Below, in pieces: positions 534 to 32,300 of a stretch of 32,300 nt of DNA. Location: the NCBI GenBank assembly GCA_026394935.1, contig JAPLZR010000119.1, forward strand, positions 1 through 32,300, read 5' to 3'. How positions within the stretch are numbered: the first letter of the stretch is position 1; each line of letters opens with the position of its first letter. The notes under the pieces are model-generated. The model saw only the letters and a list, made by a program, of their open reading frames with translations. It was not told the DNA's origin and ran no database searches. This DNA comes from Candidatus Woesearchaeota archaeon (GTDB lineage Archaea; Nanobdellota; Nanobdellia; Woesearchaeales; ARS49). Made by a program: the position numbers and the translations under genes.

Positions 534-3500
534 TTAAACCTTATCCAGGAACATTTTGAACGATTTCTCCTTAATCTTTTCCTCAGCAAAGAAAGCGTGC
601 TTGCGCATAGGCTCAGCAGAACCAATCTTAACAGAAGCACCGCACTTCTCAGCAATCTTATCCTGCCATTTCTCAATCAACTTCACAGTACCAGCATCAG
701 ACTGAACGTAAACGTGAGCCTTGTCAGCCTTCAACATTCCAGCTTCCTTACGCAACTGCTGAACACGGCGCATAACCTCTCTCGCATAACCCTCAGCATC
801 AAGCTCAGGAGTACGCTCAGTATCTAAGTAAACAAGACCAAGAGGGAACTCGACCTCCAAAAACTTCTTAGGAACTTCCCTTTCAACAATAATATGATCC
901 TTGTTAAGCTCTATTATTTCCTTGTCAATCTTCACAGTAAACTTGCCCTTAGCCAAATCAGCAAGAACACTATTGGCAGACAATTCAGCAATCTTAGCCA
1001 TAATCTTCGGACTCTTAGCACCAAAAGACTTGCCAAGCGGACCAGCATTAGCCTTAAGCTTAATCTTGACCTCAGCAAACTCCTTATGACCGTGAACTTC
1101 CTTGCAGTTAGTCTGAACTTTAATCACGTCTTCCAATTCTTCCAAAGCCTCAAGCAAAACTTCATTCTGAGAAACAATCTCTACCTTCTTAATAGGCCAG
1201 CGCAAAGAGAGTTTTGCCTTCTCACGAGCAGAAAGAACAGCCTGAACAGCCTGGTCAGCAACAACCATCTGCTTCTCCAATTTTTCATCAATATCCTTCT
1301 CATTAAACTTGGGCCAGGCGCAGAAATGAATACTTTCATCTCCTCCGAACTCTTTCCTAAAATTCTGCCAAATCTGCTCTGAAATAAACGGAGCAATAGG
1401 AGCAAACAATTTCAAGATGTTCGACAAGCACTTGTAAGCTGTAAAAAGAACAGCCTTCCTATCATTCTCCCCGCCAACAGAACACTTGTCACGAACCATC
1501 TGAATATAACTCCTGCTAAGCGTGAGGTACAAATCTTCTATGACTGCAGGAATTTCATTAAGATGATATTCATCAAACAATTTGGTGACTTTCTTTATGG
1601 CAGTATTCATTTTTGAAAGCATAAAACGCTCTTCAACAGCACCCAAAGACTTCATAACAACGTCGTCCATCTCAGCCGGGTTCGTTTTGAGATCTTTAGC
1701 AAGATTAATCACGAAATTCTGCACGTTCCAAAGAACAATCAGATTCTTGTGCTTTATTTTAGCATCCTCGTGATTGAAATTCAAATCCAGACCAGGCTGG
1801 GCAGCGCCAATCTGATAATAACGCAAAGTATCAGCGCCATACTGGCTGATAATCTCATCAGGAGAAATAATGTTCTTCAAAGACTTAGACATTTTCCTGC
1901 CAGAAGAATCATTAATGAAACCGTGCATGTAAACCGCCTTGTAAGGAACCTGACCAAAACTAATCATACTCATACACATCAAACTGTTAAACCAGCCGCG
2001 AATCTGGTCCTTGCCCTCAAGAATAAGTTCCGGAAAGCCCATCTCCTTGAACGTCTTCTCATCAGAAGGATAATTCAAAGTGGCCCAAGGAGCAACACCC
2101 GAGTCAAGCCAGACATCAAGAACATCAGGAACACGAGACATCTCCTTACCACACTCGCACTTAAATTTAATCAGGTCAACCCAAGGACGATGCATGTTTT
2201 CAAGCTCTTTCCCCGATAATTTCTTCAGCTCAGCACGAGAAGAAACAACCTTACGTTTGCCACAAGCGCAAACCCAAATAGGCAAAGGAATACCCCAGAA
2301 ACGCTGACGCGAAATACACCAGTCCTGCAAAGACTTCAACCAACTGTCAAACCACTTATTGCCCGCCCAGTCAGGAACCCAGTAAACCTTCTTATTCTTC
2401 TCAACCATATCATCCTTCAACTTCTCAACAGCCAAAAACCATTGGTCAGTAGCCCTGAAAATAACAGGAGTCTTGCAACGCCAGCAATGAGCATACTCGT
2501 GCTCAACCTTCACAACATCAATAATGACGTTCTTTTCCTTCAAAGCCTGCACAAAACGGTCATCATCCTGCTTAGCAATCAAACCAGCAAGCGGACCCAT
2601 AACATCAGAAAAACAACCCTGCTCGTCAACCTCGTTAAATGAAGAAAGACCGCACTCCTTGCCAACCTCGAAATCCTCAGGACCACAGCCAGGAGCACAA
2701 TGCACCAAGCCAGAACCAGCATCAGTAGAAACATACTTCTCTGACAAGATGACACGGTGAGCATTCTTTTCCTTGTTCTGCTGATGGAATTTCACTTCAT
2801 CCTTAAACGGGTGAACGTACTTCGTGCCAGCAAGTTTCTCGCCCTTAATTTTTTCCAAAACCTCATACTTCTTGCCAGCAACAGCGCCAATAACGCCGGC
2901 AGCCAAAGCCTCTGCAAGAATCCAGACCTCGCTGTCAACCTTTGCCCTCAAATAAATAAAATCAGGATGAGCCATAACAGCCATATTAAAAGGCAAAGTC
3001 CAAGGAGTAGTAGTCCAAACGATCAAAAATTCATTAGGCTTGTTTTCTACCTGGAGTTTTACAAAAATAGAATCATCATTCCTCGTCTCGTATTCCAGTT
3101 CGTGCTTTGCCAAAGCAGTAGCACACCTCGGACACCAAGTCATCACCTTTTTGCCAATATACAAAAGCTTTCTCTCATCAGCCTTAGCCAAAGCCCACCA
3201 AGCACCCTCAATTTACTCGTTCTTGATAGTCATGTAAGGATTCTCCCAATCCATCCAAATACCCACGCGCTTAAACTCGGCAACCATAGGCCACAACTGC
3301 GAAAGAGCAAACTTCTGGCACTCATCAATAAAACGCGAAAGACCCAATTTGTTCAAGATTTCCTTCTTATCCTTAATACCAAGCTCTTTCTCAACAGCAA
3401 CCTCAATAGGCAAACCGTGCATATCAAAGCCAGGCTGGTCCCAAACATCAAAACCCTGCATACGCTTGTACCTAAGAATTGCATCCCTCAACGCCTTGCC

Positions 3501-3662
3501 CCAAGCATGACCAATATGAATCTTACCAGAAGTATAAGGAGGACCATCCAAGTAGTAAAACCGCTTCTTGCCCTTGTTCCTTTTTACTGCTTTTTCGTAG
3601 ATTTCATTATCCTTCCAAAAATCCAATACGGAAGGCTCTACAACCTTAAAGTCATAAGTCAT
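534..3662 (-). CDS. ileS: Isoleucyl-tRNA synthetase, interrupted by in-frame TAA at 3213-3215
   Basis: YLDGPPYTSGKIHIGHAWGKALRD (HIGH region), WDQPGFDMHGLPIE, RMSKSLKN-type motif (GRKMSKSLKNIISPDE). The two ORFs (3213-3662 and 534-3191) are in the same frame and join as ...NPYMTIKNE*IEGAWWALAKADERKLLY... Confidence 0.95.
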
Positions 3663-13043: not shown

Positions 13044-13922
13044 TCAAACTTTCTGGCGCGTATTATGAACGAACATCCTATACTCGCCATCCGGCTGGAT
13101 TTCCTTTCCAGCAAAGGCAACACGCCAATTAGCACCGCCGTCGTCCAAATGATTCCATAGATTCATGGCAGACTCTTCCAAAGAACCAAAAATCGGCACA
13201 ATGAAAGGCTCGCCTTCAAAAGAATCCAGTGCCTTGCTTCCGGGCTTGTAAGTGGTCAAGCAAAAACCATGCCAAGAATCAAGCGGCAACTCGAAAAAGC
13301 TGCGAATGGTCGGGAATTGCTGATGGTTAAATCCAGCACGTTTGCCGATAGCTTTATTGTACTCTTCTGTAGCCTCTGAGTCTTTCATTCCGGGCTTTTT
13401 GAACTGGTCCTTTGTCAAACCGCTTGATTTAACAACACCTGTCCAAATCTCTCTTGCAACAGGATCGGCACGCAAAAGCGCAAGATAAGCGATATTTTCG
13501 CCAGCAGCCTGATAACCAGTTATTCTTGGAGTAAACGTGGGTGCATCAGGCTCGCAAAAACGAGAATCCAAGGCTTGAACAAAAGCTGAATGATGTGTCT
13601 TATGAGACCGCTCCATAAACTCAGCAGAAACAGTATCAGTCTGGTCGCCGTTGCTGACAATATGACAAGGAGAGCAATGATTCATAGCATTGTAAATAAT
13701 CAAACGCGGATCCTCAACTTTGGAAACATCAGCAGGAGCAGTCCTTAAATCAACGCCTCCAACATTCCTTTGATAAAACCTGTTCTGGCTGTTAGAACTC
13801 CTGCCCATAATCCAGGAAAACTGACGCAAAGTGCGATCTTCACCCATACCAAGAACAATACCGCGGCAAGGATTATCAGCCAAACGCTCTTTCAAATTCT
13901 TTTCTGCTTGTTCATAATTCAT
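13044..13922 (-). CDS. purO: IMP cyclohydrolase (PurO-like)
   Basis: NPCRGIVLGMGEDRTLRQFSWIMGRSSNSQNRFY resembles the IMP_cyclohyd N-terminal motif; last gene of the purine operon. Confidence 0.75.
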   Translation of the reverse strand: MNYEQAEKNLKERLADNPCRGIVLGMGEDRTLRQFSWIMGRSSNSQNRFYQRNVGGVDLRTAPADVSKVEDPRLIIYNAMNHCSPCHIVSNGDQTDTVSAEFMERSHKTHHSAFVQALDSRFCEPDAPTFTPRITGYQAAGENIAYLALLRADPVAREIWTGVVKSSGLTKDQFKKPGMKDSEATEEYNKAIGKRAGFNHQQFPTIRSFFELPLDSWHGFCLTTYKPGSKALDSFEGEPFIVPIFGSLEESAMNLWNHLDDGGANWRVAFAGKEIQPDGEYRMFVHNTRQKV

Positions 13923-14785
13923 TTTGATACCTCCAACACTAGTGTTCCATCAAGATAAGCCTTATCGCCATCAAGAGAATACAAGCCACGGGCAATATCA
14001 CGCAAAACTCTCGGGAAGACAACCCAGTCTCCAAACTCTTTCAAAATATTCTGCAAATCCTTTCCAACGCCGTAAACAGGGAACTTTCTCCTGAGTTCTG
14101 GACCTTCAACCGAAGGATTATCCCTGATGAAATGCTCAATCTCACTAACAGACTTGGCTTCTCCCAACAAAACAGCACGGTCTTCCAAAGATTTGACATT
14201 ATCAGGAACAGGAACAGCGTCAGAAACAGCAAGCACAGAACCGCCATCAAGCACTTCAGTAACTTTGTGCACAGAAGTATAAACATTATTCTCGCCAGCA
14301 AGCACTGCTTTTGCGCTTGGCACCCAAGCAAGACCAGCATACGCGGGCTTGCCATTAGGTTTCTTCACACGCAAATCCCCAGGATGAACATTAACAGTCA
14401 AGAAATTCTCGCAAATAATAGGAGTAACAATCCAGTCATAGCCAGCAAGAGCAACACAATCAACATTTTTATTGTCGAGCATCTTGCACTGCTCCATATC
14501 ATATTTACCCCTTGTAGCACCAGGGCACTTCATAAATTCCTTGTATGACTTGAAAACAACAGGAAGAGTAACGCCATGCTCTCGGTAATCCTCTTTCGCA
14601 ATCTTAACAGCATTAGAAGCAGGATTGTCAGTAAAAACCAGAACAGGCTCAAAAAAAACTCTGCCAGCATCACGGTTGGCAATGTACGCCTCAATAATCT
14701 TCTTGGCATTAGTGCCAGAACCGGACATAAAAATAGCAACACGCATCGGAGTATCTTTAGGAGAGTACAAACTTTCCATGCTCAC
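13919..14785 (-). CDS. purN: Phosphoribosylglycinamide formyltransferase (PurN-like)
   Basis: MRVAIFMSGSGTNAKKIIEA...VDCVALAGYDWIVTPIICENFLTVNVHPGDL...SVHKVTEVLDGGSVL. Confidence 0.88.
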   Translation of the reverse strand: MSMESLYSPKDTPMRVAIFMSGSGTNAKKIIEAYIANRDAGRVFFEPVLVFTDNPASNAVKIAKEDYREHGVTLPVVFKSYKEFMKCPGATRGKYDMEQCKMLDNKNVDCVALAGYDWIVTPIICENFLTVNVHPGDLRVKKPNGKPAYAGLAWVPSAKAVLAGENNVYTSVHKVTEVLDGGSVLAVSDAVPVPDNVKSLEDRAVLLGEAKSVSEIEHFIRDNPSVEGPELRRKFPVYGVGKDLQNILKEFGDWVVFPRVLRDIARGLYSLDGDKAYLDGTLVLEVSK

Positions 14786-16239
14786 TTACTCCCTGAGAAA
14801 TAAATGTTATTCCCGTCAGAATCCTTAATGTCAACAAGCTCGACACCAGTCCTGCCATTCTGCGCTTCTTCAATCCTGCCAATAACCCTGCCCTCAAGAC
14901 TAAACAACCTGCCAATCGCAACAGCTTTATCAGGCTGGGAAGTGGTTGCAAAACCATCAATACCCATTGGCCACTTGGCATAAGCCTGCTCAAAAGTATT
15001 GCCCAAAGCATCCATAAAGAACAAATCCTCTTTAGGAGGAACCAAGCCGTCTAAACGCGCAAACAAATTATGCTTGGCCAAAGGACGGGCAAGCTTGCCA
15101 TCATAAGCGCCGCCAGAAGGATGATAAAAACTCGAAGCAATGCCTCCATCAACAAGCTTCCTGAAGAAAGGATACAAAACAATAGCAGGAGACATCAAAT
15201 AATTCAAAAGCGCTTTGCACTCGGGCTTTTCGTGCCAATCATTCCCAAACTTCTGAACCATTGCCTTTCTCTTGGAAGTAATTCCATTAGACCTTGGATT
15301 AGGATAGCCGGAAAACGCAATCAAATAATCGCCGGGCTTTGGAACAAGAGGATTACGCAACCTTTCTTCATCAATAGTGCTGACAGCAGAACCGCTGATA
15401 TTGTAAGCAGGAACACCCTCCTTATAACTCCTAATCCTGTCACCAACATCTTCTGGTTGAAGAATAACAGTGAAGCCGGCTTCATTTCCAAACTTTGATG
15501 CATCCCTTTCAATAACATCAAAAGGAATATTGCCAGACATCTCAGCAACACCAGAAAGACACATTACAAGAGCGCCATTCTTAATAGCATCATCAACATT
15601 CATAGCCATGAAATTTTTGACGTGAGGCGAATAAATTTTGGTACGCTCAGGAAACTCAGTAGCAGTGCCGATACCATCAGAATTACCATAAACAGGCTTT
15701 CCTTTAGGGTCAAAAACAAAATAACGCGTGCGGTTGCGAACAAAAACGCCAGGAATCTCTGAAAAAGCAGTCCTTGGCGCCATACTAATCATCGTGCCAG
15801 ACACGTTGGCAGGAACAGCAACCCTGCTGCCAAGAATGGCAAGCTCTCCATTCAAAATAGAAACGTAAAAATCACTGCAGCCGGCAAGCAAACCATCCAT
15901 TACCTGTTTCAAATGCTCAACTTTTCCCTCGCTCGCATCAATAACATCACAAATAGCTAAAGGAACAGCATTCACCTGTTTTGCCTGGGCAACAAGCCTT
16001 TCAACAAGCGAAGCAGAATGATTATGCAAATTCGACTCGTTCGGGTCGCCGTCAGCAGAATGAACAACTGCCACCATGCCTTTTGGGATACTAATTACCC
16101 GCAAACCATTCATGCCAGGAGTAATAACATCTGTAAAACTATTATTCTTCAAAGACTCAGCAGAACGCTTAGCCAAATAATCAGAACCCTCATCGCCAAG
16201 CTGGATTACCGTTTTCTGATATTCATCGACAGCAGTCAT
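14782..16239 (-). CDS. purM: Divergent, long PurM-like AIR synthetase
   Basis: GDYLIAFSGYPNPRSNGITSKRKAM, FYHPSGGAYDGKLARPLAKH and WPMGIDGFATTSQPDKAVAIGRL match PurM blocks; 485 aa; operon context. Confidence 0.7.
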   Translation of the reverse strand: MTAVDEYQKTVIQLGDEGSDYLAKRSAESLKNNSFTDVITPGMNGLRVISIPKGMVAVVHSADGDPNESNLHNHSASLVERLVAQAKQVNAVPLAICDVIDASEGKVEHLKQVMDGLLAGCSDFYVSILNGELAILGSRVAVPANVSGTMISMAPRTAFSEIPGVFVRNRTRYFVFDPKGKPVYGNSDGIGTATEFPERTKIYSPHVKNFMAMNVDDAIKNGALVMCLSGVAEMSGNIPFDVIERDASKFGNEAGFTVILQPEDVGDRIRSYKEGVPAYNISGSAVSTIDEERLRNPLVPKPGDYLIAFSGYPNPRSNGITSKRKAMVQKFGNDWHEKPECKALLNYLMSPAIVLYPFFRKLVDGGIASSFYHPSGGAYDGKLARPLAKHNLFARLDGLVPPKEDLFFMDALGNTFEQAYAKWPMGIDGFATTSQPDKAVAIGRLFSLEGRVIGRIEEAQNGRTGVELVDIKDSDGNNIYFSGSK

Positions 16240-16250
16240 AAAAAGTCACC

Positions 16251-17099
16251 TCACTTGAAATACCTAAGAGCGTTAACGAACAACTGCAAGCCAGGACCTT
16301 CTGAAGGCATTTCTTTTCCTGTGCGCTTGTACAACTCCTTCAACAAAGTCCAGTCAGGCCTGTGCGTGAAATCAACAGCGCGCTCAGGATGAGGCATCAT
16401 ACCAAGAATCCTGCCAGACGGGTCGGTAACACCGGCAATATCATCAAGAGCGCCGTTAGGATTGGCAGGCAAGTTCTGAGAAGTGCAAACCTCGCCATGA
16501 ATATAACGAGCAGCAACCAAATTACGCTCTTTAATCTGCGCCAAGGTTTCGGGCGCTGCGTAAAACTTTCCCTCGCCGTGAGCAATAGGCAAACTAATCT
16601 TATCAATCTCCTCTGTCCAAGGACTTTTTCCAGAAAACTGCAAGTCAACCCAGCGGCAAAGATAACGAGGAAACTCATTATGAAGAAGAGCAGCAGAACG
16701 GGTGTATTTGCCGTCAAGGTTCGGCAACAAGCCAAGATTCACCAAAGCCTGGAAACCATTACAGACACCAAGAGTCAAATGGTCTCCTTCAACATACTTG
16801 CGCATCTCATCCCACATCTTGTTCCTAATACGGTTAGCCCACGCATAACCAGAACCAGTATCATCACCGTGAGAAAAACCGCCAGGAAACATCATAATCT
16901 GATAATCAAAAATCTTCTTGGGATTTTTAATCAAATCATTCATGTGAATAATATCTACAGAAAGAATATTCTTCGGATCTTCATCAATATCAGGCGTGGC
17001 GATGACCATGCCGAGCCGTGCACCAGCAAGCTCGAAAGCGTACTTTGACTCAAACTCACAATTCGTGCCGTGCTCCTTCAAAATAAGAACGCCAACCAT
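16251..17099 (-). CDS. purQ: FGAM synthase glutaminase subunit PurQ
   Basis: MMFPGGFSHGDDTGSG, LGVCNGFQALVNLGLLP, GMMPHPERAVD. Confidence 0.95.
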   Translation of the reverse strand: MVGVLILKEHGTNCEFESKYAFELAGARLGMVIATPDIDEDPKNILSVDIIHMNDLIKNPKKIFDYQIMMFPGGFSHGDDTGSGYAWANRIRNKMWDEMRKYVEGDHLTLGVCNGFQALVNLGLLPNLDGKYTRSAALLHNEFPRYLCRWVDLQFSGKSPWTEEIDKISLPIAHGEGKFYAAPETLAQIKERNLVAARYIHGEVCTSQNLPANPNGALDDIAGVTDPSGRILGMMPHPERAVDFTHRPDWTLLKELYKRTGKEMPSEGPGLQLFVNALRYFK

Positions 17100-20095
17100 C
17101 AGAAATCCCTCAATGGAGCCTTGTATGACTCCAACAACGTTCCAACATCAGCATCAACAATTGTCCTGCCATTATGCTGGACAACAAACCTGTTGTCGTC
17201 TCTCACAGTTCCAACCTGAGCAAACGTGCGACCATTCATCAATTCCTCAAACCTCTCCCTGCTCTCAGGAGCAACAGTCACAACACACCTGCCCTGACTC
17301 TCCGAAAACAAACCATAATCCTCCCTGCTCCATTTCCCAGGAAGCTCGTCAATAGAAACATCCATTCCAAGCATGCCACCCATAGCAGTCTTTGCCAAAG
17401 CAATACCCAAACCGCCAAAATCAACACTCTTCGCAGAAGCAACAAGACCCTGCTCAATACAATTCTGCAAGGAACGATACAATCTCGGATTCCTGTCAGG
17501 ATTAGAAACAGGACAATGATTGCCAACAAAAGGCTTGCCACGCTGCTGCTCGCCAACCATTTTGAAATACTCGCTGCCACCAAGCTCGTCGTGAGTATCA
17601 CCAAGAACGTAAACAAGGTCGCCGGCAACCTTTGCATCCAAGGAAACGAGATTTTTTACATCATCAACCACGCTGATAGTAGAAACTAACAACGTAGGAG
17701 GAACAGAAATCGTAACTGGCTTGCCGTTCTCATCGTAACCCTTGAAAGTGTTAAACATGCTGTCCTTACCGGAAATGGCAGGAGCATCGTGTGCAATAGC
17801 ATTGTCAGAGAAAGACATGCTTGCTGCAAACAAATCACCCAAGTTCTCTTCGGAATCACCAGGCCAGCAGAAATTATCCAGCAAAGCAAGATGGTCCAAA
17901 TTCGCGCCAAGACAAACAGCTCTTCTTACGGCGGTATCTACGGCGCAGGCTGACATGTGATACGTATTAATATCACTGTAAGACGGGCAAATACCCTGAG
18001 AAAGAACAACAGCCTTCCTTGAAGAAAGAACAGGACGGAAAGCAGAAGCATCAGCATAAACACGACCACGACCCTGCAAAGGCTTCAAAGCACTACCACC
18101 CTGAACCTCATGGTCATACTGCTGAGCAATAAACTCCTTACTGCAAATGTTCAAACGACCAAGCAGAGAATGCAAAGCATCAGTCAAATTGTCAATAGAA
18201 AACTCAGGCTCCTCATGCTTGACAGCTTTCCTTTCACCAAACAATTCACGCTCAGGCACACCATCATGCAGGAAGTCAAGGTCAACGTCCATAACATTCT
18301 TGCCATTATAATCAACAACACATTTTTTGGAATCAGTAAACTCGCCAATAATCGTGGCTTCAACATCACGAGACTTCATCAAAGCAGAGAATTCCTTCCA
18401 CTTGTCCTTAGGCACAGACAAAGTCATACGCTCCTGGCTCTCACTAATCCAAATCTGCCAAGGAGACATACCAAGATATTTGATTGGAGCCTTGTCCAAG
18501 TCAACATGACAGCCACCACACTCTTTTGCCATCTCAGCAACAGAACACGACAAGCCGCCAGCACCATTATCAGTAATACTGGAATACAAATTGCGAGGCT
18601 TTGCCTCAAAAATAATAGCATCGTGCATCTTCTTCTGAGTAATCGGGTCACCAATCTGAACAGCAGTAGCAGGACTGCCAGCATCCATTGCCTCAGAGGA
18701 AAACGTGGCACCGTGAATGCCATCCAAACCAATCCTACCACCAACCATCACAATATAATCGCCAGGCTGAGCTGCTTTCTCCTTCTCATCAGCAACTATT
18801 TCCTCCAAACCAACAGTGCCAACATAAACCAAAGGCTTACCACGATAACGAGGGTCAAAAACAGCAAAACCCAACTCAGTAGGAATACCAGAACAATTAC
18901 TGCCAACATTCACACCATCAATCACACCAAGACCAATCCTTTTTGAAGAAAGCATTTCCTGAGTGAAATTAGGACCCTTAAACAGCTTGCTTTTATCCCT
19001 CGGGTCACCAAGACAATAACCATAAACATTCGCAACACACTTGTGGCCTTTACGAGTACCCATCGGGTCACGATTCACACCAACAATACCAGTAATCGCG
19101 CCACCAAACGGGTCCAAAGCAGAAGGACTATTGTGCGTTTCTACCTTATAAGAAATGTAATGCTTCTCATCAAACGCGATAACTCCTGCATTATCGGAGA
19201 ACAAAGAAACACAGAAATCCTTGGCGCCCTTCCTTCTCCTAATCTCTTCAGTAGAACCCTTAATGAACCTCTTGAAAATACCCTCTGTGACTTTCTCAAC
19301 GTGCCCAGGACCATAAGTCATCGTAATCGGATTGGAAAAAATAGTGTGCTTGCAATGTTCAGACCAAGTTTGGGCCAGAGATTCAAGCTCAACATCAGTA
19401 GGATTGCGACCTTTCTCCTTGAAATAAACCTGAACTGCCTTCATGGACGCCAAACTCATAGAAAGAGGACCATTTCTTGAACCACTAGCATTAGCAATAC
19501 CTTTCTTGCCAATAGTCTCTAATTCCTTATCCTCAGAATTCAAAAGGTCAACCAGGCCAGCAGTTGGCGGTTCGTGAAGATCAACAGAGGGATACTTTGT
19601 ATTCATGCCCTTGTCTTTAAAATACTGGTCGCGAGACTTAATCTTCACACGCTCGATAATGGGATTGTACAAACCGCCTGCAAGTTTTTCAACATCCTCT
19701 TCAGACAAGTTTCCTGAAAGGAACATCACCTTAGAAGAACTGGCAGGAATTTCCTGACCAAGCGAAGCCTCAATACCCTCGCTAACAGTGTGCCCGACAT
19801 TATCAGTCACGCCAGGCTGAGGACCAATCTCAACAACCCAAGAGAAATCTGTTGGAACAATAATCTCTCCCTTTTTTTCAGGTATGTGCGGTCTGTTAAC
19901 GAGAGCATCCTGAACAACAGGATTCCTCAAACCCTCAGCAACACTTCCCAACTGCTCAGAAGGAAGCTCAGCATACAATGTGTAGGCATCAACAAGCACA
20001 ACATCTTTTACATCAAAGCCGGCTTCACGAAGACTCTTAGCCCTAACCTCAGCACGAGAATCTTCTACCTTTGAAACGACTTCAATGCGAGACAT
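17099..20095 (-). CDS. purL: FGAM synthase with N-terminal PurS-like region (PurSL)
   Basis: N-terminal PurS-like repeats (e.g. VVEIGPQPGVTDNVGHTVSEGIEASLG), then LAQTWSEHCKHTIF, VETHNSPSALDPFGGAITGIVGVNRD, SGKDSMFNTF. Confidence 0.95.
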   Translation of the reverse strand: MSRIEVVSKVEDSRAEVRAKSLREAGFDVKDVVLVDAYTLYAELPSEQLGSVAEGLRNPVVQDALVNRPHIPEKKGEIIVPTDFSWVVEIGPQPGVTDNVGHTVSEGIEASLGQEIPASSSKVMFLSGNLSEEDVEKLAGGLYNPIIERVKIKSRDQYFKDKGMNTKYPSVDLHEPPTAGLVDLLNSEDKELETIGKKGIANASGSRNGPLSMSLASMKAVQVYFKEKGRNPTDVELESLAQTWSEHCKHTIFSNPITMTYGPGHVEKVTEGIFKRFIKGSTEEIRRRKGAKDFCVSLFSDNAGVIAFDEKHYISYKVETHNSPSALDPFGGAITGIVGVNRDPMGTRKGHKCVANVYGYCLGDPRDKSKLFKGPNFTQEMLSSKRIGLGVIDGVNVGSNCSGIPTELGFAVFDPRYRGKPLVYVGTVGLEEIVADEKEKAAQPGDYIVMVGGRIGLDGIHGATFSSEAMDAGSPATAVQIGDPITQKKMHDAIIFEAKPRNLYSSITDNGAGGLSCSVAEMAKECGGCHVDLDKAPIKYLGMSPWQIWISESQERMTLSVPKDKWKEFSALMKSRDVEATIIGEFTDSKKCVVDYNGKNVMDVDLDFLHDGVPERELFGERKAVKHEEPEFSIDNLTDALHSLLGRLNICSKEFIAQQYDHEVQGGSALKPLQGRGRVYADASAFRPVLSSRKAVVLSQGICPSYSDINTYHMSACAVDTAVRRAVCLGANLDHLALLDNFCWPGDSEENLGDLFAASMSFSDNAIAHDAPAISGKDSMFNTFKGYDENGKPVTISVPPTLLVSTISVVDDVKNLVSLDAKVAGDLVYVLGDTHDELGGSEYFKMVGEQQRGKPFVGNHCPVSNPDRNPRLYRSLQNCIEQGLVASAKSVDFGGLGIALAKTAMGGMLGMDVSIDELPGKWSREDYGLFSESQGRCVVTVAPESRERFEELMNGRTFAQVGTVRDDNRFVVQHNGRTIVDADVGTLLESYKAPLRDF

Positions 20096-20101
20096 TCATT
20101 A

Positions 20102-21943
20102 TCACGCAGTCTGCTTGTATTTCTCTCTGATAACGTTCAGCATATCTCTATACTGCATGGCTGCCTTTGCAGGGTCATTAGCGTTAAGAACAGCTCTGCC
20201 AACGTTCACAATCACGTTGCTACCAAAAATCTTAATGACATTATCTGCATCACCGCCCTGAGCGCCAACACCAGGCATCAGGACGAGCGTATTATCGCCG
20301 ACATAAGACTTGATACACGCGACCTCGTCCAAAGTAACGTGGTTTCCAGGGCTTGGAGCGCCAATAACGACGCCATCCCACTTGTAAGCAGCGGCTGCAC
20401 GAGCCAGCTGAACATACTGCGGAACATATTTGCGATGTCCAAGCTTAGGATGCTCCATCTCAACGATATCATCAATATGGTAATCTCCAGGATTTTCTGT
20501 AACATCAGCCAGCTTCATCTTCTCTGTCTTATGTTGCGGATTACTCATAATGCACATACCAATAATTCCCTCACCACGATTATGAGCCATCGTTGCAGCT
20601 TCCTCAAAGTTGCCAGGGAACGGCGAATACGTTACAGCATCAAAGCCAAAGTTCTCAGCGTGATACAATCCAGAGTCATTCGTGTTTCCAATATCAACAA
20701 GCTTCCTATCCCAAATAGCAACCGAACCATGCTTGTGAATCCTGTCAACAATCTTCGTTTTATCCTCTCCGGACAAGTTCTCAAAGAAATTGCCGTTAGG
20801 CTTAACAGCAGCAGCGTAAGGAGCAACTTTATCGATGAAATCAAGACACCACTGCAGTTTATCAGCGCCTTCTGGCAACGTATTCTCAGTGCCCTGCCAG
20901 TACTCGGCCGGGTCCAAGCCAGCGCACAAAATAGACTTCTTTTGTCTGACAGCATCTCTCCATTTCTCTGACAAAGTAGTCTTATACAATGTTCTTCCAT
21001 CTCTTATCTCGCAAATCGAAAGACCATAATGAGTTTTTACGACTTCGTCAAGAGCGTTAAATTTGTTAACATCAACAAGATGCTTTCCATAACGTTCAAC
21101 AAACCTCTTAGCACGGTCCTGCTTGCCACCGCTCGGATCGAAAAATCTGGCAAACATTTTTGCACCACGCTTTCTAAGGAAATTCTTGCCCCACTTTTCA
21201 GGGTCACGGAAGTAACGAACAGCCTCAGGATTTTGGGAATGCTCTCTCAAAAACTCCTCATCAATGCCGACCATAGGGTGAACTTTAACGCCAACATTCG
21301 CAAGATTCTGCTCACCATTCTGATAACGCGTAACAACAGCAACAAGGTCAGTTGTATCGACTCCCAAATTTCTCAGCATAGGAATCCAACCAGTCTCACG
21401 ACCATCAGCTTCCTTGTGATAACAGCTCGAACCCTCTGTAATCAAGTCAACTATGTGCAAATTAGCAAAAGGTCCTTCAGCGCTCCTAAAAAAATTGGGA
21501 ATAGGCGTGCCGTCTGACTTATGAACCTCAACACGGTCAGGCTGGCCAGCAACCTGCTTGTAAAGAGAAATATGAGGCAATTTCAGCAAATGAGCCACAG
21601 GCGCTGAGAAAAGCCAATCCCTTGTCTGACCGCCAGAAATTGTGCTCTGACCTTTCCTAGGCGAAAGACTAAATGGCTCCTTAGGCAAAATACGCGATGC
21701 TTCTTCAGCAAGAATCTCAATAATCTTTCTGAAATCAGGATTTTTGTCCATCATACTAACAGCATGATGCCACATACCTCCTGCATTTTCACCATAATCC
21801 TTGAAAGAACCGCCATCACCAACAACTTTCTCACTATTACAATAATAGATGCCAAGTTCTCCAGAAGCCAAAAGAGTAGGATCCACATCCTGGAATCCGG
21901 TTGTCTTAACCAATTGTTCTGCAATAAACTGATTACCCGCCAT
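20102..21943 (-). CDS. pyrEF: Bifunctional UMP synthase: N-terminal orotate phosphoribosyltransferase + C-terminal OMP decarboxylase
   Basis: SGGQTRDWLFSAPVAHLLKLPHISLYK and PRPP-site-like HIVDLITEGSS (OPRT); ILCAGLDPAEYWQG, AAVKPNGNFFE, VAIWDRKLVDIGNT, MPGVGAQGGDADNV, NVGRAV (OMPDC). Confidence 0.85.
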   Translation of the reverse strand: MAGNQFIAEQLVKTTGFQDVDPTLLASGELGIYYCNSEKVVGDGGSFKDYGENAGGMWHHAVSMMDKNPDFRKIIEILAEEASRILPKEPFSLSPRKGQSTISGGQTRDWLFSAPVAHLLKLPHISLYKQVAGQPDRVEVHKSDGTPIPNFFRSAEGPFANLHIVDLITEGSSCYHKEADGRETGWIPMLRNLGVDTTDLVAVVTRYQNGEQNLANVGVKVHPMVGIDEEFLREHSQNPEAVRYFRDPEKWGKNFLRKRGAKMFARFFDPSGGKQDRAKRFVERYGKHLVDVNKFNALDEVVKTHYGLSICEIRDGRTLYKTTLSEKWRDAVRQKKSILCAGLDPAEYWQGTENTLPEGADKLQWCLDFIDKVAPYAAAVKPNGNFFENLSGEDKTKIVDRIHKHGSVAIWDRKLVDIGNTNDSGLYHAENFGFDAVTYSPFPGNFEEAATMAHNRGEGIIGMCIMSNPQHKTEKMKLADVTENPGDYHIDDIVEMEHPKLGHRKYVPQYVQLARAAAAYKWDGVVIGAPSPGNHVTLDEVACIKSYVGDNTLVLMPGVGAQGGDADNVIKIFGSNVIVNVGRAVLNANDPAKAAMQYRDMLNVIREKYKQTA

Positions 21944-24540: not shown

Positions 24541-24810
24541 ATGAACCCAACAATACTGTTCGGATTAATAGGAGCATTAGGCGGATTACTTAGAGCAGTA
24601 ATAGGCGTAAGAAAAGCACACCTCCAAAAAAGAAAGTTCGTGCTGAAATACTTCTTAATAACAGTACTAGGAGCAGCAGTAATCGGAGCAATACTCGGAA
24701 GCATAATAGGAATAAACAAAGCAGTAGCACTGTTCGCAGGATACGCAGGAACAGACTTACTTGAAGGTTTGGCAAAAAGCTTCAAGATAGCGCCAATAAG
24801 AATAGGCTGA
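24541..24810 (+). CDS. Small Gly-rich membrane protein
   Basis: 89-aa: GLIGALGGLLRAVIGV...GAAVIGAILGSIIGINKAVALFAGYAGTDLLEGL, glycine-zipper-like helices. Confidence 0.7.
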   Translation: MNPTILFGLIGALGGLLRAVIGVRKAHLQKRKFVLKYFLITVLGAAVIGAILGSIIGINKAVALFAGYAGTDLLEGLAKSFKIAPIRIG

Positions 24811-24821
24811 TTTCTAATAGT

Positions 24822-24906
24822 TTTGCCGCGGTCTACGACTCGCTTTCTTCTCCCCACGCTTTGCAAAGGGAGAAAAAGCAACCTGAGCTTGCTCAAACGC
24901 GGCAAA
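24822..24906 (+). ncRNA. Candidate structured RNA (closing stem enclosing two hairpins)
   Basis: P1 tttgccgcg/cgcggcaaa (24822-24830/24898-24906, 9 bp). P2 GCTTT-c-TTCTCCC/GGGAGAA-AAAGC (24842-24854/24868-24879, 12 bp with 1-nt bulge). P3 TGAG-CTTG-CTCA (24884-24895). Confidence 0.55.
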
Positions 24907-24973
24907 TTATTCGAGGTTAACGACTAATCGGTTACAAACAAAGTTTAAAGGTAACCTGCAGTTATCACACTGC

Positions 24974-25060
24974 ATGAAAAACGCAGCAATGCCAAAATGG
25001 GCTTGGGCAGTGATAGTAATCATCCTGCTTATCCTCATCTATTGGTTCTTCCTGAAATAA
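24974..25060 (+). CDS. 28-aa single-TM microprotein
   Basis: MKNAAMPKWAWAVIVIILLILIYWFFLK; TATA-like agtttaaagg about 26 nt upstream of the ATG; not in the ORF track. Confidence 0.55.
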   Translation: MKNAAMPKWAWAVIVIILLILIYWFFLK

Positions 25061-25094
25061 GAAGAAAAAGAGGCCAATAACTGAGATTTAACTA

Positions 25095-25117
25095 GTTTTT
25101 TTTATCTTTTTTTATTT
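25095..25117 (+). terminator. T-rich terminator candidate after the microprotein
   Basis: gttttttttatctttttttattt-type tract. Confidence 0.45.
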
Positions 25118-25247
25118 AATTCTTCTGGGTGATTTCGCAAACTTTCCAAAATAATCGTTCATTTTCCGAAAAGATTCCTAAGCAGGCAGTAAAGCTTTCT
25201 GAAAATCATTCGATACAAATTTTAATAAGAAAAACATATTATGTGGT

Positions 25248-25658
25248 GTGACAAGATACTATCTGGATACTTCAATATGGCTCGATCATTATGAAAACAG
25301 AACCGACAGATTCAGACCGCTTGGCGAGTGGGCATTAGCACTGCTTTCGCTAATAAAAGAAAGAAAGGACACAATCCTGGTTTCAGATGTCATATTACGA
25401 GAACTTGGAACTTATTATTCTGAACTGCAAATAATGGAAATTTTTAAATCATATGCACATTTGATTGAAAACATAAAACCAACCGATAATCAAATGAAGC
25501 TCTCAAAAACAATATCATCGATAAGAAAAATACCTATGGGCGATGTTCTGCACGCGGTGCTGTCAAAAGATCAAAATGCCATCTTGGTTTCAAGAGATAA
25601 TCACTTCATGCTATTGACTGACATAAACAAGGCGCATAAACCAGAAGAATTAATCTAA
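25248..25658 (+). CDS. PIN-domain ribonuclease toxin (VapC-like)
   Basis: YYLDTSIWLDHYENR (first Asp), VSDVILRELG, MGDVLHAVLSKDQNAILVSRDNHF; GTG start. Confidence 0.85.
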   Translation: MTRYYLDTSIWLDHYENRTDRFRPLGEWALALLSLIKERKDTILVSDVILRELGTYYSELQIMEIFKSYAHLIENIKPTDNQMKLSKTISSIRKIPMGDVLHAVLSKDQNAILVSRDNHFMLLTDINKAHKPEELI

Positions 25659-25907
25659 CCCTCTTTCTTTCATCATTTTTTGAAATACTTCCTCTCTTGC
25701 TTGATGAAGCTCTTCATCAGTCGTCTTTCTTTTTGATTTGCCCAAGAATTGATGCAGTTCTTTCCAGGATTCCGTCTTCTTAATCTCTTCTAACTTGAGC
25801 CTAAGCGCATCCCTGATAAACTCTGTTTTAGTAGTATAATTGGGATGCATAGCTTTTTCAATCTCAGCAGCCATCTCATCATTAACCTTGATTGTAATAC
25901 TTTCCAT
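25650..25907 (-). CDS. Ribbon-helix-helix antitoxin
   Basis: MESITIKVNDEMAAEIEKAMHPNYTTKTEFIRDALRLKLEEIKK; paralog of the 12059 protein; tail-to-tail 9-nt overlap with the PIN gene. Confidence 0.8.
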   Translation of the reverse strand: MESITIKVNDEMAAEIEKAMHPNYTTKTEFIRDALRLKLEEIKKTESWKELHQFLGKSKRKTTDEELHQAREEVFQKMMKERGLD

Positions 25908-25910
25908 CGT

Positions 25911-25930
25911 AAGACAAGGTAAGACAAGGT
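25911..25930. promoter_or_regulatory. Tandem 10-bp direct repeat AAGACAAGGT x2, candidate RHH operator
   Basis: Lies between the RHH start codon (25907) and a minus-strand TATA element (tatttaaat). Confidence 0.5.
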
Positions 25931-26003
25931 AATTTAAATACTTTTTGGTTTGTCAACAAAAACTGAGCAAACACTTAAAAATCACACCTATATATGCCGG
26001 AAT

Positions 26004-26690
26004 ATGGACGTCCAATACAAAATCTTCGAGCTATTCATCAAAAACAAGAGATTAAGGTTCTCAGACATAGAAAAAGCACTGGAAATGAAAAGCAACCTGC
26101 TTTCCTATCATTTAGACGGACTGGTAAAACAAGGAATGCTCACAAAAGAATACGATGACTACATTCTAACAAAAAATGCAGAAACAATGATGCCGATATT
26201 TGCGCAAATAACAGGCAAAGAAAAAGGAGTACTGCCAGTAGTGCTAATGGCAATACTGAATGAAGGCAAAATACTGCTGTTGAAACGAAGCAAAAGACCA
26301 TACCAAGGATACTGGGGAATGCCAGGAGGAAAATTGCAGTTACAGGAAAGCATACCAGACTGCGCTTTACGCGAAGCAGAAGAAGAAACAGGACTGAAAT
26401 GCAGTTACTCACACACAGCAGCAGTAGTACACGAACGAGTCAAAGAAAATGAGGAATACAAACACGCATTCGTACTGTTCCTGACAGTACTTAAGCCGGA
26501 ATCAATCAAGCTCAAAGAAAGCGAAGAAGGAAAACTCGAATGGTTCCCATTGGACAATTTACAGTCAGACAGAATAATACCATCAGACTATAACATGATA
26601 AAAGAGCACATAGAACAAAAGACCCAAGTAAGCAATGTAATCATGGAAGAAAACAGCGAAGGACAACTCGTATCATTCACAAAAAAATAA
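26004..26690 (+). CDS. Winged-HTH + Nudix hydrolase fusion protein
   Basis: N-terminal HTH FELFIKNKRLRFSDIEKALEMKSNLLSYHLDGLVKQGMLTK; Nudix box GGKLQLQESIPDCALREAEEETGL. The ORF track starts at TTG 25950; ATG 26004 preferred. Confidence 0.85.
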   Translation: MDVQYKIFELFIKNKRLRFSDIEKALEMKSNLLSYHLDGLVKQGMLTKEYDDYILTKNAETMMPIFAQITGKEKGVLPVVLMAILNEGKILLLKRSKRPYQGYWGMPGGKLQLQESIPDCALREAEEETGLKCSYSHTAAVVHERVKENEEYKHAFVLFLTVLKPESIKLKESEEGKLEWFPLDNLQSDRIIPSDYNMIKEHIEQKTQVSNVIMEENSEGQLVSFTKK

Positions 26691-26707
26691 GAAAAAATAA
26701 ATAAAAA

Positions 26708-32116: not shown

Positions 32117-32248
32117 ATGCAGAGGGCAGGATTTGAACCTGCGAACTCACTAAGAGACAAGCTGTTCCGAGCGATGCGAGGAACTTTCGACAAAGCCCCT
32201 TTGTCGCTACCTGAAGCTTGCGCCTTTGACCAAGCTTGGCTACCTCTG
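32117..32248 (-). tRNA. tRNA-Leu(CAG) with a 46-nt intron after position 37
   Basis: Acceptor GCAGAGG/CCTCTGC + A; anticodon arm CAAGC-TTCAGG[intron]A-GCTTG; V-arm CTCttagtGAG; T-arm GCAGG-TTCAAAT-CCTGC; CCA not encoded; TATA-like element upstream. Confidence 0.88.
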
Positions 32249-32300
32249 CGCACTAAACCGGTCTTCACCAGCATATAAAAACCTTTTTAAATACAGAACA

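Follow-up and report, generated by a model that had tools for sequence, protein, structure and literature searches.

MITEs are short, non-coding, multicopy and intergenic, form stems and are flanked by direct repeats, which measure 7-9 bp in an example given in a review of prokaryotic MITEs (PMC10969869). Yeast mitochondrial GC clusters are palindromic mobile units of ~42 nt that lack an enzyme of their own, have target repeats of 2-3 bp and empty orthologous sites, and nest and merge (PMC4478555). REP and BIME repeats are multicopy extragenic palindromes made of single hairpins of 20-40 bp and tied to Y1 transposases, the RAYTs (PMC2817692, PMC12306157), and hairpin repeats, including double-hairpin elements, have spread in intergenic DNA as described for the repetitive hairpin elements of sponge mitochondria (PMC2800124). 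Template-switch repair has been documented for other hairpins (PMC8794818). Here, we analysed a window of 32,300 nucleotides from Candidatus Woesearchaeota archaeon (contig JAPLZR010000119.1, positions 1 to 32,300), in which a compact patch had initially been annotated as a strongly structured RNA candidate. Our sequence analysis points to a mobile DNA element at 24822-24906 rather than an RNA gene.

The patch folds with a minimum free energy of -33.4 kcal/mol, a value equalled by none of 200 dinucleotide shuffles (Table 1). All the stems named in the initial annotation are present: the closing stem (P1), the long bulged hairpin of 5 + 7 bp (H2) and the UGAG-CUUG-CUCA hairpin (H3). Overlooked there was a small 3-bp hairpin, GUC-UAC-GAC (H1), directly 3' of the 5' arm of P1, so that P1, H1, H2 and H3 together form a four-way junction. 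The window copy is mildly decayed, the two outer (basal) pairs of H3, which are C-G in intact copies, being C.A mismatches. The tRNA finder returned nothing at 24822-24906, in agreement with the annotation, and an Rfam search of the site at gathering and loose thresholds matched no family. When folded as single-stranded DNA, either strand forms the four-way junction (z -4.00 and -3.55). The CUUG loop had been taken to favour the plus strand; it is not conserved in the family, and as DNA the two strands fold to a similar degree, so that this preference does not hold.

Table 1. Positions of the element and its surroundings in the window, and sites of a second repeat family in the sister species.
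Feature	Position	Strand	Evidence or remark
Inserted segment relative to sister species, 110 bp	24807..24916	.	Direct repeat AGG at 24804-24806 and 24914-24916; alignment to G001:C72
Four-way-junction core of the element	24822..24906	+	Fold z -4.07; covariance-model match
P1, 5' arm TTTGCCGCG	24822..24830	+	Fold and covariation
H1 hairpin GTC-TAC-GAC	24831..24839	+	Fold, covariation, family alignment
H2 long hairpin with CTCCC/GGGAG block	24842..24879	+	Fold and covariation
H3 hairpin TGAG-CTTG-CTCA, without its two outer pairs in the window copy	24884..24895	+	Fold, alignment, covariation
P1, 3' arm CGCGGCAAA	24898..24906	+	Fold and covariation
Upstream gene, CrcB-like, 89 aa	24541..24810	+	Weak Pfam CRCB match, E 5e-4, below cut-off
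Second-repeat sites in G001	L131 2028-2100; L043 1850-1930; L126 183-290; L127 2640-2740; L129 3019-3100		

Elsewhere in the window, a tRNA gene with an apparent intron of ~60 nt lies at 32118-32249 (-); it was missed by the intron-blind tRNA finder and scores 45 bits against the Rfam tRNA model. An isoleucyl-tRNA synthetase-like gene (534-3662, -) is split into two open reading frames by one in-frame TAA at 3213-3215, which may reflect a sequencing error, a pseudogene or read-through. At 25248-25907, a PIN-domain gene (+) and a ribbon-helix-helix gene (-) overlap at their ends, a putative VapBC-like toxin-antitoxin pair in an unusual convergent order. Finally, a run of genes at 13044-21943 (-), whose translations were judged by eye, resembles purine and pyrimidine synthesis genes (PurL-, PurQ- and PurN-like) and, if truly such, would stand out in a Woesearchaeon with so small a genome.

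A covariance model built from 23 copies matches the window copy at 24823-24905 (75 bits). With this model, full-length copies were detected in two draft genomes: six in the genome that contains the window (G000; 1.03 Mb, 146 contigs), and ~48 in that of its sister species, the other genome examined from the same genus (G001), uncultured archaeon LFW-252_3, listed as Woesearchaeota by its authors (PMC8561730). The same search at E 1e-4 returned zero copies in the family's 24 remaining genomes, and the element appears restricted to one genus among the genomes tested. The viral contigs, phages and plasmids searched contained no match, and a loose motif scan yielded mostly noise. When the genome collection was scanned for the exact pattern, only LFW-252_3 and four bacterial sequences matched, the latter rejected as copies because they fail to fold into the element; one weak match in another genus (G002), which resembles a lone hairpin, was rejected as well. 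The copies are short, non-coding and dispersed in intergenic DNA, as are those of MITEs. They are old relative to one another, with a mean identity of 59% (94% for the best pair), so that present-day activity cannot be claimed, and a pair that is 92% identical occupies non-orthologous sites in the two species.

Most intact copies form a four-way junction without any unpaired base between the helices. Over 23 copies, 96.6% of cells are paired, versus 82.4% in shuffles, and 22 of the 32 base pairs display compensatory changes in which both sides have been altered. The covariation among related copies is strong: its score of 0.431 compares with 0.160 in shuffles, whose count is no probability since the copies are related by descent, and with at most 0.125 when partners were slid, a control that preserves relatedness and still fails by far. 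The conserved closing stem spans 6-9 bp in the family, and two forms of P1 predominate, GCCGCG/CGCGGC and GCTCTG/CAGAGC, besides further paired variants. In the copy common to both species, at least one H3 pair has been compensated since the split (CCTGAG/CTCAGG vs CCCGAG/CTCGGG), a change in place unless another copy replaced this one. Scans for other perfect four-way junctions in the examined sequence returned the element family together with scattered chance-like or tRNA-like cases.

At least five copies in the sister species carry a second repeat family inside an H2 arm, always at a similar place (Table 1). In this repeat, a TG-rich linker connects two hairpins (ATCGGAAAT...GTGTG...TTTCCGACAT). 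Short multi-hairpin inserts are also found in loops of the element (L119 7989-8040; L063 1990-2045; L135 2990-3065), two of which are interpretable as small four-way junctions in their own right, one of them being GCCCAAG / three hairpins / CTTGGGC. Such nesting is reminiscent of the way in which GC clusters merge in yeast mitochondria (PMC4478555).

At the window locus, the site is uninterrupted in the sister species: two stretches of G001:C72 that adjoin, with an overlap of three bases, AGG, correspond to window positions 24544-24806 and 24914-26700, and the 110 bp of the insert are missing there, with conserved surroundings. The window copy thus has a direct repeat of only 3 bp, and the stop codon of the upstream CrcB-like gene comes from the insert (GGC TGA here, GGT TAA in the sister species). 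Most of the 28 orthologous sites compared are empty in the other species, one harbours an intact copy in both (G001:C51:7924 and G000:C72:5460), and one retains a decayed remnant (in G000, at the G001:C75:4684 site), in a comparison that covered ~70% of G000 and a quarter of G001 and that, with two species, leaves gain and loss unpolarised at each site. Several empty sites display overlaps of 6-12 bp, of the kind left by target duplication. Flanking direct repeats of at least 8 bp (8-16 bp) accompany 12 of 56 copies, versus 2.0 expected when the left and right flanks of different copies were joined (maximum 7; 0/2000 permutations as high). The direct repeats sit 8-31 nt to the left and 0-24 nt to the right of the closing stem; the stretches that separate them from the stem are unrelated from copy to copy. 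One of them, AAATTCTTGAAGTGAA, duplicates the apparent end of a coding sequence; another, AAATGAAAA, duplicates an overlapping stop and start, and both genes remain intact. Target-site direct repeats and empty orthologous sites are features of MITEs. Conserved terminal inverted repeats are absent from the insertion ends, which lie up to ~30 nt outside the closing stem in unrelated sequence, the closing stem alone being shared; local complementarity between a copy's own flanks equals that between flanks of different copies (11.8 vs 11.8).

We consider it likely that the window patch is one copy of a mobile DNA element, non-coding and non-autonomous, that is specific to the genus and comprises ~84 bp plus short variable flanks. 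An enzyme supplied in trans would recognise the extruded junction by its shape, as we infer from the fact that nothing is conserved outside the closing stem, and would cut at a variable distance outside that stem. It would then join the element to a staggered break in A+T-rich intergenic DNA, and the filling of this break would create the direct repeats. Two processes could keep the arms matched: mobility restricted to well-formed junctions, or template switching, in which replication copies one arm from the other; the inserted copy need serve no host function. Counting against a mobile element are the absence of a mobilising enzyme among the families searched, that of conserved terminal repeats outside P1, which is unusual for a MITE, the age of the copies, the direct repeat of just 3 bp at the window copy, and gain and loss that are unpolarised at single sites. 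The transposase families PF12762, PF01797 (Y1, RAYT-type), PF01609, PF00872 and PF13610, as well as Cas1 (PF01867), are absent from both incomplete drafts, and the search of these five transposase families revealed no autonomous transposon sharing the ends of the element.

It is conceivable, if rather unlikely, that the family represents a class of mobile DNA recognised solely by its perfect four-way-junction shape, a mimic of the Holliday junction. Such elements would have neither conserved ends nor a dedicated transposase, would rely for movement on host enzymes of junction processing or break repair, and would keep their symmetry by template switching.

A functional structured RNA that occurs in multiple copies and is maintained for its fold, be it a small RNA, a leader, a terminator or an mRNA-stability element, would account for the strong fold and covariation and for the intergenic position of the copies, often 10-60 nt from genes. 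A functional RNA tolerates G.U pairs and not A.C; on DNA, both are one event seen from either strand. The stems of 53 copies contain 27 G.T and 30 A.C mismatches (binomial p 0.79), in a set collected by a covariance model that favours G.U if anything. As G.T is no commoner than A.C, pairing appears to be maintained symmetrically, at the DNA level. Wobble pairs constitute 1.7% of paired cells in the element versus 7.5% in the tRNAs of the same genomes, a comparison of wobble share only, since the tRNA finder brackets standard pairs only and cannot show A.C. In addition, the copies are oriented at random relative to flanking genes (18 with, 18 against, according to simple, approximate gene calls), their flanks, compared across copies, share no motif that could serve as a promoter, both strands fold alike, and a single intact copy is common to both species across the 28 sites. 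We therefore hold a function as RNA to be improbable. The initial annotation was right in proposing a real, evolutionarily constrained and covarying structure; the RNA gene that it suggested finds no support, given the dispersed insertion, the empty site in the sister species, the random orientation, the lack of conserved flanks, and G.U pairs that fare no better than A.C. The annotation had itself named a mobile-element terminal repeat as the finding that would speak against an RNA, and the outcome comes close to it, the patch being, in all likelihood, a copy of a mobile element.

SINE-like spread, in which target-primed reverse transcription inserts copies of a structured transcript at new sites, is very improbable. 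Direct repeats that vary in length and flanks that are ragged and unrelated, as in the element, fit target-primed insertion, and G000 encodes one intact reverse transcriptase of 354 aa (G000:C72:18.3-19.8 kb, L246). However, this enzyme adjoins an AAC-rich repeat, as in diversity-generating retroelements, to which, judged by that repeat, it probably belongs. In the sister species, which holds ~48 copies, the sole match to the one family model used is weak and interrupted, a broken remnant, and no intact reverse transcriptase was found in this draft. The element has no tail and no conserved 3' end, and its mismatches are strand-symmetric. We thus disfavour a reverse transcriptase as the mobiliser.

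It is equally hard to credit that these are ancient fixed palindromes under loss, with replication slippage between chance direct repeats deleting the hairpin and its flanks and no mobility at all: hairpin-prompted deletion between short direct repeats is a well-known process, and the variable length and position of the repeats as well as the remnant in G000 fit it, but the copies still present carry an excess of direct repeats over permutation, which loss would remove, the repeats duplicate coding ends, near-identical copies occupy different sites in the two species, and the dispersal of one family requires movement at some time.

The family makes a clean natural example: strong covariation, commonly read as a sign of a functional RNA, appears here to belong to a mobile DNA palindrome, and the strand-symmetry test (G.T vs A.C) can separate DNA palindromes from functional RNAs in other candidates. 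With ~50 natural variants of its fully paired four-way junction, and as a mobile element of DPANN archaea for which no enzyme was found, the family also makes shape-guided transposition testable.

In sum, the element works like a MITE, yet it is not classed as one, because conserved terminal repeats are lacking outside the closing stem and neither a parent transposon nor a parent transposase was found; its four-way junction, maintained by compensatory changes, is a further difference from MITEs (PMC10969869). Like the element, yeast GC clusters are enzyme-less mobile palindromes, but they are smaller and mitochondrial, have shorter target repeats and possess no conserved four-way junction (PMC4478555). 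The sponge elements likewise spread as intergenic hairpin repeats and, as far as described, are hairpins only, a distinction drawn from that description and not from sequence (PMC2800124). REP and BIME repeats are also multicopy extragenic palindromes, but each is a single hairpin linked to Y1 transposases, a family that was found in neither draft (PMC2817692, PMC12306157). Template switching explains one-step paired changes of the arms without a wobble intermediate, but it is a mutational process and not an element, and leaves dispersal unexplained (PMC8794818). As far as we have searched the open-licence literature, no such element has been described with a four-way-junction architecture maintained by compensatory change.
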